From Opitutales bacterium (lineage in GTDB: Bacteria > Verrucomicrobiota > Verrucomicrobiia > Opitutales > Oceanipulchritudinaceae), in assembly GCA_020831585.1 (NCBI GenBank), contig JAFIGE010000042.1, forward strand, positions 1-37,077: a stretch of 37,077 nt of DNA. The letters run 5' to 3'. The notes beneath the pieces are model-generated. The model worked only from the letters and a program-made list of their open reading frames with translations. It was not told the origin of the DNA and did no database searches. Positions 1 through 30,782 of the stretch are shown here, piece after piece. The translations under genes were made by a program, and so were the position numbers. Within the stretch, counting starts at the first letter, position 1. The number at the start of each line of letters is the position of its first letter.

Positions 1-535
1 TATACGCCGCCACCATCCTTTGCGCCGCCGTATCCGCCTCCACGATCACACTGCGAAACCGCTCCGCCCAGAAAGTCCCCACCGTATCGTGCTTCCGATT
101 ATACCACAAAGTGAAGCGCGTTTTCACCTCCCGCATAAAGACCGACACATCCCCCATCCGCGCCTTCAAGCGTCGGCGGATGCCCTCGGCGGAGTCCCTG
201 TTATTCGCCAAAATCGTCTCCAGATCATCCGCATCCAGTCCCAGCGAAGCACACCGCGTCCCCCCATAGAGCGCCCGAAAGCGCCCCACCAGACCCGCGT
301 CGTCCAGATTCATCGTCTCCTTCGGATCGAGCCGTACGAAGATATGAAAGTGATTGGCCATAAAGCAATAAGTCAGCACCTCCATCCCCGCAAACACCGC
401 CTGCGAGCGCATAATGTGGCGCATCGCCTGCATCGCCTCCTCATCCATCAACCGTCTTTTCTGCACCACCCTCGAAATAAGGTGGTGGCACGCCAGTCTC
501 GGATACCGTAGCCGCCTGCAAAACCTCCTGCTCAT
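1..535 (-). CDS. RAYT (REP-associated tyrosine transposase), 3' end cut by window edge
   Basis: A single-strand transposase of the Y1_Tnp/TnpA_REP family, predicted to cut and rejoin REP-like hairpins. About 178 codons are visible from ATG at 535, with no stop before the window edge. Seen: an N-terminal HHLISRVVQ segment, the HUH metal-binding motif in CFMANHFHIFV, and the family block WYNRKHDTVGTFWAERF. The expected C-terminal helix after 'AAQRMVAAY' lies outside the window. The gene reads outward and is a close paralogue of the RAYT that starts at 36936 on the other strand; their first about 45 codons and their leaders are nearly the same. Catalytic Tyr is not identified with certainty. Confidence 0.85.
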   Translation of the reverse strand, partial: MSRRFCRRLRYPRLACHHLISRVVQKRRLMDEEAMQAMRHIMRSQAVFAGMEVLTYCFMANHFHIFVRLDPKETMNLDDAGLVGRFRALYGGTRCASLGLDADDLETILANNRDSAEGIRRRLKARMGDVSVFMREVKTRFTLWYNRKHDTVGTFWAERFRSVIVEADTAAQRMVAAY

Positions 536-600
536 GGGGCCACTCAAACACCTGCCCAGCTTCTGTCAATGCTGTAATATTCAGAACATTAAAAAAAGTT
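536..600 (-). repeat. Conserved RAYT leader, copy 1 (palindrome at 576-590)
   Basis: Read on the minus strand, this leader matches the leader of the right-hand RAYT (36871-36935) almost base for base: a T-run, an imperfect palindrome (AATATTCAGAACATT on plus), then a shared block with TTGACAGAAGC and GGGCAGG, then the start codon. Conservation of noncoding DNA suggests either recent duplication of the whole cassette or a functional control or recognition site. The rest of the gap to 750 shows nothing recognisable. Confidence 0.7.
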
Positions 601-26700: not shown

Positions 26701-29427
26701 ATCGAACCGGGGGATCCGCGCCCGGCGGAAGCGTTCTTCGATCTTTGGATGGGCCCCACCGAGGCGCGCTTTGGCTTTCCCCGTGCCGCCGATGACTACG
26801 GTGTGCGACCTGTTGTGAAATGGTCGACCGACTTGGAAAACTGGGAGCCCCTGCCGCATGGGCCCTCAGCGGTGCCGGGGTGGGAAATCGCCCTGCTCCA
26901 ACCGCTCCCCGAAGAAGGTCGCGCCTTCTTTCGTCTGGATTTCACCGATGGCCCCCCCACCGCTGTCGCCCCGGCCAGTATCTCCGCTATGGAGAGCGAT
27001 GGTCCGCTCGCCTTTGATCTTCGGTTTTTCCCAGGCACGATAGAGACGCCGCTCGACCCCGGCAGCCTCCAGCTCCTCGCCATCAACGATCAACCGGTCG
27101 CCAACTTCGCAGGCCCTATCACCACCCCGGATGGCATTTTGGAGATTTTTCCCAACGGCAACGTCACCTACGTCGCCAACCCGGGATTGGGAGGCGGCCA
27201 AACCGCGGAAGAGACCTTCACCTACACCGTGGTCGATCGCTTCGGTCGCAGCGTGCGCAACACCTTCACCCTCACAGTGGTGGGCGAGAATGATCCGCCC
27301 AGCGTGGCCCCCATCGCCCTCAGCCATGCCAGCGGGGTGGAACCCGCCGGCACCACCTACCGCTACTTCGAGGGCGACTTCCCCACCGAGGCCAGCCTGC
27401 TCGCCGCCACGCCGACCGCGACGGGGCGCCAGCCCACCTTCAGCCTCGCCCCGGCGGCGGACGCGACCGGCGGCTTCGGCCTCGAAATGACGGGCGAACT
27501 CTTCGTCCCCGCGCCCGGGCCCTACACCTTTTTCCTCATGGGCAACAACGCCTCCGTGCTCGACGTGGGCGGCACCCGTGTGATCGCCCACGACGCCGCC
27601 GATCGCTCGGGCACGGTCGAACTAACCGCCGGCACCCACACCGTGCGTGTGCTTTACTTCGACACCACCGAGCCCGCCGCCGAGCTGACGGTCGATTACG
27701 TCGGCCCCGGCTTCCTGCGCGAGGCCATCCCCGCCGACGCCTTCCCGCGCCTCACCGCCATTCCGCTCGATCCACTCGCCGGAGCCAGCGATCCGGATGA
27801 GGATGATGTGCTCACGATCAGCCACATCGACGGCCAGCCGATTGCGCTGAATACCCCCGTTCAGCTCGCCTCCGGCGCGTCGGTGCAGCTCAATGGCGAC
27901 GGCACGATTACCTACCTTCCCGCTCCCGGCCGCAACGTCTTCCACCAAGCGAACGATACCGACAGCTTCACCTACACCGTGACCGATTCCGGCGGCCTTT
28001 CCGCCAGTGCCACTGCCCAAATTCATTTGGCCCGACAGAACACGGCCCCAGTCGCGAATGGAATTTTCAACCTGGAAACGGACGATTTGCGGGGCAACCT
28101 TTTTCCCAATGAAGCCTTCACCGATGCCGATGGCGATGAGCTGCGCATCACCCATGTCAACGGGGTTCCGCTCATTGGCGACGGCGTCGTGTCCCTGCCC
28201 TCCACCGCCCGCGTCTCCCTTCCCCAGGCGAGGGACGTGGCCTTGAGTTACGATGGAAGGAATTCCTTCATGCGCACACTTTCGCAGGACCGCGCAAGTG
28301 ATACCTTTACGGTCACCGTCGTCGATGCCGCCGGAGCCAGTGCCGAGGCCACTGTGGTCGGGGATTGGCCGATTGGTATCAGCAATTTCCTGGGATATAC
28401 CGACAGCCGGTTTACCCCGCATTTGGGGCCACGGACCGCTCAGGTCATCAACACTTACGAATTCCCGGTGACCATGGTCACCTACATCGAGCAGCGGGAA
28501 ACGGGGGCTTTCTTTGGCCACCAACAACACGCACTCCCAAGTAAGCATGCCCTTCATCTGGACTTCGAGGTCCCGGAAGGAATCGAGCTCGGTGGCCAAC
28601 ATTTCTTCGATCTGTTCGATCTCCACATCGACACCGTTGATGGCGACCCTATCTACTACGGAGACTCCTATGCCAATTTGCAGATAGATCGGCTCTACTC
28701 CACCGCCGAAAAGTCCTTCTTCCGCCTCACCGGTGCCATCAGCCCGCATTGGCCGCTCATGCTGACGACCACTGCCGGCACGGCACCCTACAAAAGCGGC
28801 ATCCGCCTGATCGAAGCACCCTACGGCAGCAGCGCTAGTGTTTTCCGTTTGGGCTTCTTAGTTCGGGGTCCGAATGCCAACGTAAATGTCCTCGAGCCCA
28901 GCTTTGCGGCCAACATCCTCGTCACCGGGATCTGCCGGACGCCAGATACCAGCCGCTTCACAGTGACCAACAACACCAGCGAGACCGTCCCCCTCACGGT
29001 CGGATCAGGATCTGGCGGCACCGTCTTCACCTTCGCGCCCGGCGAGACGCAGACCCTCAACGTGCCCTACGAGCCCAAGGTGCTGTTTGTGGTGCGTGAG
29101 GCGGAGCTGGGACTCTTCGACAGCAGCGATGTGGCCTGTCCACTCGGCCTCAGCTTCACCGCGACACCGCTCTGCAGCGACACGTTTTTAGCCTTCGTCA
29201 AAGTCCGCAACAACAACCCCACCGAGTCCTTCACCATACGCGTCGAGTCGGTCGATTTTCCGACCATCCGCAGCGCCCCCCAAGTGATCGGCAACCAAGC
29301 CGCAGAATTCGTCCAATTAAACACGCAGGGCACCAACCTCGGGGGCACCGAAGGCCGCATCGTGGTGATCCTGGGGGATATTGAGGAAACCGTGGAAACC
29401 TTCATCTTTTCTGATAATGACTGTTAG
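23719..29427 (+). CDS. Giant exported LamG / cadherin-like / PA14 multidomain protein
   Basis: A 1902-residue predicted surface or secreted adhesin. ATG 23719 is preferred over 23668 because it puts the signal peptide nearer the start (WLRFFWILAFSTGGWFPAVS, about 20-40). Domains with approximate residues: LamG 48-256, discoidin-like 275-423, two short Ig-like units 426-587, a second LamG 598-805, a second discoidin-like 828-978, a WSTDLENW...FFRL module 995-1076, cadherin-like 1091-1191, PA14-like 1208-1331, two more cadherin-like units 1338-1548 (DPDEDD, DADGDE calcium motifs), and a unique tail 1551-1902 with four Cys, ending IFSDNDC. LamG units share SLAGRSFTVEAWIWL. There is no PEP-CTERM tail, LPXTG or T9SS sorting signal. 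Sugar or polymer binding is inferred from domain types. Confidence 0.88.
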   Translation: MDIQNVSRELPSSHPCGAWLRFFWILAFSTGGWFPAVSTVEATPTPGLEFTDDLGRVTLDADFSLAGRSFTVEAWIWLKYRWGDRAVLAQTGEDNLLHLLVRNDRLHLGFWGDDLTGNSLLPVKEWVHVAYTYDEATRSQRVYLNGQNDGSRVANASFAENNRPLHIGAFFNFHSNPFQGRILELRIWDHARDGATLDAGRFSTPPLDSPGLQALFTFEGSDGTFLPEATGNLVGNTLHGSASAVEPVAGPAYLTGVVPLKTLPTGTLAEAVEGYTFSFAPRADLTDPDGTLLLNGSGPERVWGTAWLNLLGAAVTSVVGWSGGSPEITLAFSGPARIDAVTLFLANSGGAHGVGLPTSVELITPGGTLRSVAVTPGADVGGLQAVTVDELDALSETLTVRLERGTHDIALAGMAIDGERMFVQVIDFPLASTALVGSTVVLAPTSDSGLPVTLTLESGPALLDGDALTFTGEGVVTLVASQAGDSTFVPAEPVVRVVEVARAGQEILNFAEIGDRQVGDTVILEAGSGSALPVEFTLLAGPGVIENANELRFTGPGIVLVMAAQPGNDLWSPAPPILQAFAVLGGERIFGPSEGLTAGLELGTLPGRVSLDGSLSLAGRSFTVEAWIWLHGDDADQPVLGQFGEADVLHLLVRHGRLHLGFWNDDLTGGSVLPTGEWIHVAYTFDAATLEQQVFVNGEMDGSRIASAPFPENNLPLHIGGGFSEFANPFNGRILEVRIWDHARPGPLLFAGRFETPPPGAQGLDALFTFTGSIGTSIPEVTGKLAYATLSGDAVVVEPVIGPEYLLDFAFPQQPLASGSLAPAVSGYTPATAPEAAFTDPTGNLLTNGFGPARVWGDPWLGPLNQVLPSILVWDASAPALTFHFSERVRIAGVTLYAANSGGAEDIDRPDAVEISTPGGFAQSFALAPSTAPLGTLEPIEIDNLHLYTEALTLTLSGGSPRLAIAEVTFDGETLAEPMVGSDALPLPAMRFLGIEPGDPRPAEAFFDLWMGPTEARFGFPRAADDYGVRPVVKWSTDLENWEPLPHGPSAVPGWEIALLQPLPEEGRAFFRLDFTDGPPTAVAPASISAMESDGPLAFDLRFFPGTIETPLDPGSLQLLAINDQPVANFAGPITTPDGILEIFPNGNVTYVANPGLGGGQTAEETFTYTVVDRFGRSVRNTFTLTVVGENDPPSVAPIALSHASGVEPAGTTYRYFEGDFPTEASLLAATPTATGRQPTFSLAPAADATGGFGLEMTGELFVPAPGPYTFFLMGNNASVLDVGGTRVIAHDAADRSGTVELTAGTHTVRVLYFDTTEPAAELTVDYVGPGFLREAIPADAFPRLTAIPLDPLAGASDPDEDDVLTISHIDGQPIALNTPVQLASGASVQLNGDGTITYLPAPGRNVFHQANDTDSFTYTVTDSGGLSASATAQIHLARQNTAPVANGIFNLETDDLRGNLFPNEAFTDADGDELRITHVNGVPLIGDGVVSLPSTARVSLPQARDVALSYDGRNSFMRTLSQDRASDTFTVTVVDAAGASAEATVVGDWPIGISNFLGYTDSRFTPHLGPRTAQVINTYEFPVTMVTYIEQRETGAFFGHQQHALPSKHALHLDFEVPEGIELGGQHFFDLFDLHIDTVDGDPIYYGDSYANLQIDRLYSTAEKSFFRLTGAISPHWPLMLTTTAGTAPYKSGIRLIEAPYGSSASVFRLGFLVRGPNANVNVLEPSFAANILVTGICRTPDTSRFTVTNNTSETVPLTVGSGSGGTVFTFAPGETQTLNVPYEPKVLFVVREAELGLFDSSDVACPLGLSFTATPLCSDTFLAFVKVRNNNPTESFTIRVESVDFPTIRSAPQVIGNQAAEFVQLNTQGTNLGGTEGRIVVILGDIEETVETFIFSDNDC

Positions 29428-29482
29428 GATTTTGCCGGTCAGCGCATCTGCAAAGTGCATAACAACAAGCGTTCAATAAGGG

Positions 29483-29503
29483 GTGGCGGCATTCTGCCGC
29501 CAC
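29483..29503. repeat. REP-like hairpin, GTGGCGGCA-TTC-TGCCGCCAC
   Basis: A perfect nine-pair stem with a three-base loop, 56 bases after the giant gene stop and 41 bases before the RAYT remnant element. No T-run follows, so an ordinary terminator is unlikely, though it might still stabilise the mRNA end. Its position next to a RAYT remnant fits a REP hairpin, the substrate of such transposases. Confidence 0.65.
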
Positions 29504-29523
29504 GCGCAAAAGCGGGGATTCAG

Positions 29524-29967
29524 GCAGCAGAATGCAGCCCCTCCTTGGGCTTGAATCGCTTGATTGGAAATGGATAGATCTGCCGAATGCGTTTTTTCAG
29601 CGATCTGGCGAAGACGGTCACGACACGGAATCATCTCCCGCATTGGCAGCAGGAGGAGGCAACCTACATCGTGACCTGGCGCTTGAAAGACTCGATCCCG
29701 CAGGCGCTAATGGAGGCGTGGAGGCGAGATCGGGAGGAATGGATGCGGCGGGAAAAAACACCCCAAGAGCCACACCCGCAGCGACCAACGAGAACGGCGT
29801 GGCAAACGGCCCGGTGATCTTTAATGTCCCCGCCCAATGGACGCTCCACCTCAGCGAGACGTCCATGTAGAAAGTCGGATAAAAACCGATCACGCATGAC
29901 GTCGTCGTCACGGTGCACGAGCCACTGACCACGGTTGAAGTCCCAAGGAGGGGCTGCATTCAGCTGC
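29524..29967. mobile_element. Decayed RAYT element bounded by inverted repeats
   Basis: The ends 29524-29552 and 29938-29967 are inverted copies of one another, sharing GAATGCAGCCCCTCCTTGGG exactly (29530-29549 and the complement at 29942-29961) and differing at a few positions outside it. Between them lies a broken RAYT N-terminus (29587-29817) and DNA without coding potential. Together it looks like a non-autonomous or decayed RAYT unit of about 450 bases. It belongs to a different RAYT subgroup from those at the window ends. Confidence 0.65.
29587..29817 (+). pseudogene. RAYT transposase remnant (N-terminal part only)
   Basis: A 76-codon frame with MRFFSDLAKTVTTRNHLPHW followed by QQEEATYIVTWRLKDSIPQA and WRRDREEWMRREK. 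This matches, from memory, the N-terminal pattern of a RAYT subfamily (TR..LPHW..EGATY.VTFRL.D..P..VL..W). It stops after TAWQTAR, before any HUH motif, and other frames beyond do not recover the rest. Non-functional. Confidence 0.65.
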
Positions 29968-30018
29968 CCACCTTGCAAGGAGAGCCCACCTTGCAAGGAG
30001 ACCCACCCTGCAAGGATG
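29967..30018. repeat. Tandem 17-18-base repeat, three copies
   Basis: CCCACC[T/C]TGCAAGGAGA-like units at 29967-29984, 29985-30001 and 30002-30018. The unit contains the palindrome CCTTGCAAGG in the first two copies. It follows directly after the right inverted repeat of the RAYT remnant. The rest of the gap up to 30185 shows nothing recognisable. Confidence 0.75.
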
Positions 30019-30185: not shown

Positions 30186-30782
30186 TCAACCCCGCGTGCG
30201 GCGGCGAATAACCCATGCGAGACTCCCCAGCCCGAAGAGCAGCCCGAAGTGTCCCGGCTCCGGGATCGCCTGCCATTGCCCGATCACCTGCCCGAACTCG
30301 CCACCAAAACCGTTGCCCAAAACGATGTCTCCGGTTCCGGAATTAAAACTTAAAGGGGAAAGGTCGACAATCGCCGATCCCACAAAGGCAATGGAATCCG
30401 TCGAAAAAATCTGGTTCGGCGCAGTGAACTCCGGGTCAAAAGTGAAAAAGAATGAGAAGAAGTTGAGCCCGTCGATCCCGGCAGTCGCAAGCTCAGTATA
30501 AGTTTCACCCCAATTCTCCGTATGATTGAGCGAAGGGGCGATGTCGGAACCGAAGATGCGCGCAAAGAACTCGGGGGAGGCTGAAGACACCAGCCCAAGG
30601 AGTGTGATACCTTGATCAAAACCAACGGAACTGTCCGACACCGAGGCGAATCCATCCGTGGTGGTAAACGACACCGCATTCAGGTTTGAGAAATCAATTT
30701 CGATTAAAACCAGAGCGGATGCCTGCTGCCAAGTGCTTGCGGCGAGTGTGACGGTAAACAGAAAGGCGGAACGAAATTTCAT
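30186..30782 (-). CDS. PEP-CTERM sorted protein, paralogue B
   Basis: A 198-residue exported protein: signal MKFRSAFLFTVTLAASTWQQ then ASA, a mature part starting LVLIEIDFSNLNAVSFTTTD, and a PEP-CTERM tail (AIPEPGHFGLLFGLGSLAWV followed by IRRRTRG). It is a paralogue of the protein at 22945-23625, on the opposite strand and on the other side of the giant LamG gene. The pair shares the start of the mature region and the whole anchor, and diverges in the middle (an acidic, Ser/Thr/Phe-rich region here). Function unknown. Confidence 0.85.
   Translation of the reverse strand: MKFRSAFLFTVTLAASTWQQASALVLIEIDFSNLNAVSFTTTDGFASVSDSSVGFDQGITLLGLVSSASPEFFARIFGSDIAPSLNHTENWGETYTELATAGIDGLNFFSFFFTFDPEFTAPNQIFSTDSIAFVGSAIVDLSPLSFNSGTGDIVLGNGFGGEFGQVIGQWQAIPEPGHFGLLFGLGSLAWVIRRRTRG

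Follow-up and report, generated by a model that had tools for sequence, protein, structure and literature searches.

What kind of element left a broken RAYT gene lying between two inverted repeats in the genome of an Opitutales bacterium? The site is found in a stretch of 37,077 nucleotides (hereafter the window; contig C201) of an assembly that comprises 5.28 Mb in 262 contigs and is 98.5% complete. It is flanked by a LamG/cadherin-like gene of 1919 codons, which ends at 29427, and by a convergent gene (30186-30782) with a weak PEP-CTERM match. An earlier note on this DNA had described a broken RAYT gene between inverted copies of 29 bases with a 20-base identical core, and had proposed a mobile unit that carried its transposase. 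A RAYT fragment indeed lies between the arms and the 20-nt identical core is present on the sequence, while the arms (29523-29549 and 29942-29968) measured 27 nt each, with 26 of 27 positions (96%) complementary and a spacing of 392 nt. Two features were absent from that note: the gene lacks its 3′ part, and a further REP lies outside the left arm and makes up a REP doublet with it (Table 1). The direct repeats that follow the right arm may resemble tail-to-tail REP ends, judging by eye only.

Table 1 Features of the remnant site (window positions 29476-30018).
Feature	Position	Strand	Remarks
Degenerate REP	29476..29501	-	5 mismatches to consensus, perfect 7-bp stem; outer member of left doublet
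REP, left arm	29523..29548	+	exact consensus
Leader, REP to RAYT start	29549..29586	+	38 nt; aligned with C76 leader, 40 of 42 positions agree
RAYT 5′ fragment	29587..29749	+	roughly codons 1-54, starting in frame at ATG
Filler replacing RAYT 3′ part	29750..29942		about 193 nt, no match; by eye unlike RAYT in alignment
REP, right arm	29943..29968	-	1 mismatch to consensus
Three direct repeats, 17-18 nt	29966..30018		core CACCTTGCAAGGAG, palindromic core CTTGCAAG; directly after right REP

Both arms belong to a dispersed repeat family. They match a 26-nt REP consensus with no mismatch (left) and one mismatch (right), and 17 copies of this REP were found in the genome when up to three mismatches were allowed, against none for a reversed-pattern control. 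This census ruled out a chance inverted repeat. Eleven of the 17 copies are located on contig C76 (26.3-33.1 kb), in a stretch of 7 kb that also contains an intact RAYT gene, and contigs C79, C126 and C201 carry two each. The REP palindrome GGCTGCATTCTGCTGCC has one stem mismatch, while GGCGGCATTCTGCCGCC, that of the degenerate copy in the window, is perfect. Taken singly, REPs of the common type fold little better than shuffled sequences (z about -1), the degenerate REP folds better than shuffles (z -3.8), and the C76 doublet folds strongly (z -10.7). The doublet of the window forms one hairpin (-20.8 kcal/mol, z -3.68), so that two inverted REPs in a single hairpin, as in a REPIN, are present in a partly decayed form.

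The tag before the hairpin is GGAG in C76 and in the window arms, and not GTAG or GTGG. Certain REP families are described as having degenerate tags in the available part of PMC3733652, and we therefore consider GGAG a variant rather than a reason for exclusion from RAYT-associated REPs. The same source reports GTAG repeats in Opitutus terrae, with one family mostly GTGG. No GGAG-initial word appears in the REP literature covered here (PMC6006769, PMC8266576, PMC2817692, PMC3733652 and other REP papers); the wider literature may contain one.

The intact RAYT gene (C76:29855-30484) encodes a protein of 209 aa with a Y1_Tnp domain (PF01797, scoring 35.3 bits where the cut-off is 23), and its translation contains the HUH motif NHVH and the catalytic-tyrosine motif YIRRNP. 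Its score against the NCBIfam equivalog REP_Tyr_transpos (NF047646) is 74.5 bits, below the cut-off of 80 (E = 7.7e-21). The gene lies between REP doublets, the inner REPs of which are inverted, at 29779 (+) and 30487 (-). An intact copy with the same ends, which the earlier note had suggested looking for, is thus present in the genome. The premise of that note, that RAYT genes are not usually described with terminal inverted repeats, is contradicted both by these REPs and by the REP-flanked genes described in Nunvar 2010 (PMC2817692, as far as the paper was available). Five RAYT matches were found in the genome, namely one full and one truncated copy of the C76 type and three genes that are 37-42% identical to it. 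Multiple near-identical full-length copies, as in IS200/IS605 elements, are not present in the genome. The three other RAYT-like genes are located at C154:25972-26523, C77:9728-10258 and C219:390-923; those of C154 and C77 have their own flanking inverted palindromes, with the tag GTAG at C154, and two of the three lie inside open frames, one of 1316 codons and the other of 1552.

Y1_Tnp proteins of about 330-340 aa also form a very large family in this genome, with 154 matches to one member (150 candidates scored). PF01797 matched 134 times in total in this genome. Among the 17 family genomes searched, three of a sister genus gave 49, 48 and 58 matches and the remaining 13 gave zero to six. 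Class 2 proteins are described as low-copy, with more than five per genome at most for subclass 2.3 (PMC6006769, in the sections available). The left end of the window (2-499, minus strand) is a member of this family. Since many copies are found at contig ends, the assembly seems to break at them. Twenty copies picked from one subfamily (L250-L269) are 77-89% mutually identical (median 84%), and apart from the gene and a short piece upstream of it they have no ends in common. Each is preceded by a palindrome like AATGTTCTGAACATT (by eye, exactly ATGTTCTGAACATT in 10 of the 20), mostly followed by a TTGACA-like box, and the copy at the left end of the window has such a palindrome as well (about 500-560, minus strand); members of the other subfamily have different short palindromes. 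It may be asked whether the palindrome and the box are a self-regulated promoter that is copied with the gene.

How the remnant relates to the C76 gene was assessed by comparing both with the close RAYT homologues of two other Opitutales assemblies, G055 and G056. The similarity between the window and C76 (29475-29749) runs from the edge of the left doublet into the RAYT gene, where it breaks off. The leader is far more similar to that of C76 (Table 1) than to those of G055 (23/42) and G056 (21/42), and the coding fragment is identical to C76 at 148, to G055 at 145 and to G056 at 147 of 165 nt. Because the leader is nearest to C76 and the coding part resembles all three to much the same degree, we read the window copy as the product of a duplication within this lineage that was not very recent. 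The copy may instead have arrived separately, since its coding part matches C76 scarcely better than it matches G055 or G056. At residues 7, 44, 47 and 53 the remnant shares the state of G055 and G056 and C76 differs (translations compared by eye), so that the copying may have gone in either direction between the window and C76. Limited to about codons 1-54, the window copy has neither the HUH nor the tyrosine motif and no Pfam match; it is what remains of a RAYT gene and not a functional member. It should be inert, and if it still has an effect, this would be due to the REP hairpins.

The filler that follows the fragment had no match elsewhere in the genome or in the loci compared. A known gene was considered for it and rejected, as its six-frame pieces matched only themselves in those loci. 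A diverged RAYT continuing through the filler was rejected as well: tblastn matches extended to residues 97 and 113, but the alignment there was unconvincing. In the intact unit, GATGAGG and the stop codon immediately precede the right REP, and both are absent from the window. On its inner side, the right REP of the window agrees by eye with the left-end leader at eight of ten bases, which gives a weak hint that this REP derives from another left end. With the right-end flank absent and the inner bases rather like the left leader, the two arms may not both be ends of one unit, and we do not claim them as such.

Other pieces of the unit are found beside REPs. A 44-nt piece of the RAYT 3′ end (91% identity) stands next to REPs on C76, and leader-like tails follow one REP on C79 and one on C76. 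On account of these pieces, RAYT gene ends appear to travel with REPs in this genome; rayt 3′ ends beside REPs elsewhere have been reported by Nunvar et al. (PMC2817692, available part). The window remnant is the largest such gene piece found. A stretch of 107 nt on C79 (90649-90755; L010) consists of two REPs with tags inward, 55 nt apart, and a RAYT-leader-like stretch, and is possibly a miniature of the RAYT unit.

Taken together, the site is probably a decayed and truncated second copy of a RAYT/REP unit (“REPtron”) that shares a common origin with the intact unit of C76. This reading is built on the identity of the fragment, the REP membership of the arms, the truncation, and the intact paralogue with the same inverted ends. 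The copy would have retained the 5′ REP doublet, the leader and the gene start and lost the 3′ part, and other DNA (the filler) would now separate the gene start from the second, inverted REP. We infer a copying step, its direction and a part of the enzyme in it along the following lines. RAYT, a Y1-type HUH single-strand nuclease, would cut at REP hairpins preceded by the GGAG tag. Normally it would spread REPs and REP doublets, and adjacent gene sequence may occasionally be carried with a REP to a new place. Cleavage of single-stranded REPs by RAYTs, with the tetranucleotide involved in recognition and possibly guiding the enzyme to the cleavage site, is described in the accessible portion of PMC8266576.

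Another explanation, which corresponds to the mobile unit of the earlier note, is that a whole REP-RAYT-REP unit was inserted and its middle later replaced, in which case the arms would be true ends and the site a MITE-like derivative. The arms are inverted with one difference in 27, the inner REPs of the intact C76 unit have the same orientation, and the 107-nt unit of C79 combines two tags-inward REPs with a leader-like stretch, all of which would fit. However, the flank of the intact unit's right end is absent beside the right arm, and immediately left of the gene G055 and G056 have a minus-strand REP and no intact plus-strand one, so that inverted inner arms are inconstant among close homologues. 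We consider such an insertion unlikely. The fragment could also have been delivered by ordinary recombination between REPs in separate regions of the chromosome and be flanked by two independent REP insertions, given that REPs are short dispersed repeats and that the right arm is tied to the RAYT unit by its REP alone. Yet from the edge of the doublet onwards the left REP, the leader and the coding start follow one another without a break and in the same order as on C76, and this scenario is doubtful to us. The four residues at which the remnant resembles G055 and G056 would be expected if the window were the older home of RAYT, decayed in place, and C76 a daughter copy. The REPs, however, cluster at C76 (11/17) and not at the window (2/17), which makes an older home here quite improbable. 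The truncated second copy is the preferred explanation of the site.

We then consider how the REP and the RAYT gene are associated in other genomes. Of the 55 genomes searched as relatives, none but the own genome contains the REP (up to three mismatches); none of the other 54 belongs to the same genus. An exact search of a named genome collection, for which the pattern was loosened slightly, gave 95 stretches in 12 Verrucomicrobiota assemblies; a leader-like tail was present on seven of 149 distinct REP copies from these stretches, all seven in G056. All 12 REP-bearing assemblies have a RAYT homologue (E ≤ 0.001), compared with any RAYT match in 21 of the 55 relatives, own genome counted. The best RAYT is at least 56% identical in five of the 12 (91, 90, 74, 65 and 56%) and 38-47% identical in the other seven. 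Of 387 genomes of the phylum, 33 have a RAYT match at E ≤ 1e-50, none above 50% identity besides the query itself. The neighbouring REPs vary together with the RAYT: those beside the 74%, 65% and 56% homologues are GGCGGAAGGATTCCGCC, GGCGGCAAAATGCCGCC and GGCGAACGCTGGTTCGCC, respectively, and by eye GGAG precedes each hairpin. In the Akkermansiaceae assembly FRAM18_bin328 (L073 and other CAJJBR loci), this REP (25 nt) is present on many contigs and the best RAYT is 39% identical, with different flanking palindromes; a close transposase may have been lost, left unassembled or replaced there. This assembly speaks against a strict link of REP and RAYT. The earlier note had held that repeats found apart from RAYT would count against its reading. 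By that measure the case is mixed: assemblies with this REP in which no close RAYT was found do exist, FRAM18 being one, while the REPs of the present genome cluster round their RAYT.

The C76 RAYT is 91% identical to that of G055 and 90% to that of G056 (568 and 569 of 630 nt; synonymous distances 0.41 and 0.35). RpoB, compared for the pairs of the present genome with G055 and of G055 with G056 only, is 77.5% identical in the former (830/1071; DNA 69.3%) and 97.6% in the latter, and third-position identity between the present genome and G055 is 41.3% in RpoB versus 79.5% in RAYT. The M42 peptidase of the window shows 60% identity to its counterparts in G055 and G056 and 79% to those of G002, G009 and G013, the best RAYTs of which are only 46-47% identical. 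Among the matches listed, long DNA similarity of C76 to the G055 and G056 contigs covers the unit only (753 and 705 columns), and the remaining matches are REPs or the 3′-end piece beside REPs. On the left side of C76, no open frame of at least 90 aa is shared with the G055 or G056 contigs. Directly to the right of RAYT lies a DUF4143/AAA_14 gene in C76 (30557-31786) and in G055 (L208:7873-9108), 30% identical. Synteny through this gene was rejected, as the nearest such genes of G055 and G056 are only 35% identical despite an RpoB identity of 97.6%; for this reason the neighbours are probably unrelated members of a common family, side by side by coincidence, although a shared context is possible.

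The RAYT identity of 90-91%, against 60% for the M42 peptidase and 77.5% for RpoB, and the confinement of long similarity to the unit suggest horizontal movement of the REP-RAYT unit between genomes. A similar case is presented for Thauera by Nunvar et al. (PMC2817692, in part), with an acquired rayt and REPs accumulated nearby. The main alternative is misassembly or misbinning, C76 being foreign to this genome. Both the number of contigs and the fact that similarity to G055 and G056 is much higher for RAYT than for other genes could be explained in this way, but the G+C content of C76 (61-64%) is near that of the window (60%) and unlike that of the G055 contig (52%), and C76:15651-16550 is a member of this genome's large Y1 family. 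We thus regard a foreign origin of the contig as highly improbable. The mobile unit proposed in the earlier note is partly borne out, in that the family shows signs of movement as a REP-bounded unit, whereas the right arm at this site lacks the right-end sequence of the intact unit. No empty site was found: the M42 neighbour is present in seven of seven genomes searched, but none of the six contig stretches compared keeps both neighbours of the site.

RAYT genes with inverted REP flanks (REPtrons) are known (PMC2817692, PMC3733652 and PMC8266576, each available in part). The C76 unit resembles them in its Y1 HUH protein of about 209 aa, in the tagged palindromic and inverted REPs around an intact gene, in the presence of REP doublets, and in the accumulation of REPs close to the gene, which has also been described for three marine gammaproteobacteria and Thauera; gene ends beside REPs elsewhere also recall the published rayt 3′ ends. 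It differs in the truncation of the window copy, in a GGAG tag in place of GTAG or GTGG, in the small number of REP copies (17), and in the presence of a second, unlinked copy, whereas these papers, in the parts available, emphasise that the gene is single-copy and that there is no evidence for its mobility. By motifs read by eye and not by a tree, the C76 RAYT is close to TnpA-Y1 subclass 2.7 (PMC6006769, available part): its 209 aa compare with a median of 213, the NHVH and WQ motifs are present, and by our own count D and R occupy the positions of E. coli E100 and H101. Its tyrosine motif is, however, YIRRNP as against YI[LR][NQ]NP, and the REPs of that subclass carry GT[AG]G and not GGAG. 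The C76 and window doublets are like REPINs and BIMEs (PMC6006769 and PMC8049555, as available) in having two inverted REPs with a short spacer in one long hairpin, and unlike them in that REPs here are just 17 and mostly local and the left doublet of the window is partly decayed. A Y1 transposase gene between inverted repeats is also seen in TIRtrons/TIRYTs (PMC3733652, in part), but their repeats are long TIRs unrelated to REPs, whereas the arms here are dispersed REPs.

The REP-flanked arrangement is therefore already known for this gene family, and the window copy is an ordinary remnant. Mildly new are the second, unlinked RAYT copy and the 90-91% identical RAYTs at unrelated places in distant bacteria. 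RAYTs are usually regarded as domesticated transposases that are themselves immobile and copy nothing beyond their small REPs. In this Verrucomicrobiota clade, the RAYT gene may move as a GGAG-REP-bounded unit within and between genomes, a proposal that we hold as tentative, quite possible rather than probable. If true, it would contradict PMC8266576, which in its available part finds no evidence of tnpA-REP mobility, and PMC8049555, which in its available part describes RAYTs as vertically inherited and single-copy. The clade would then allow testing of whether RAYTs can move themselves and whether GGAG guides cleavage as GTAG does.
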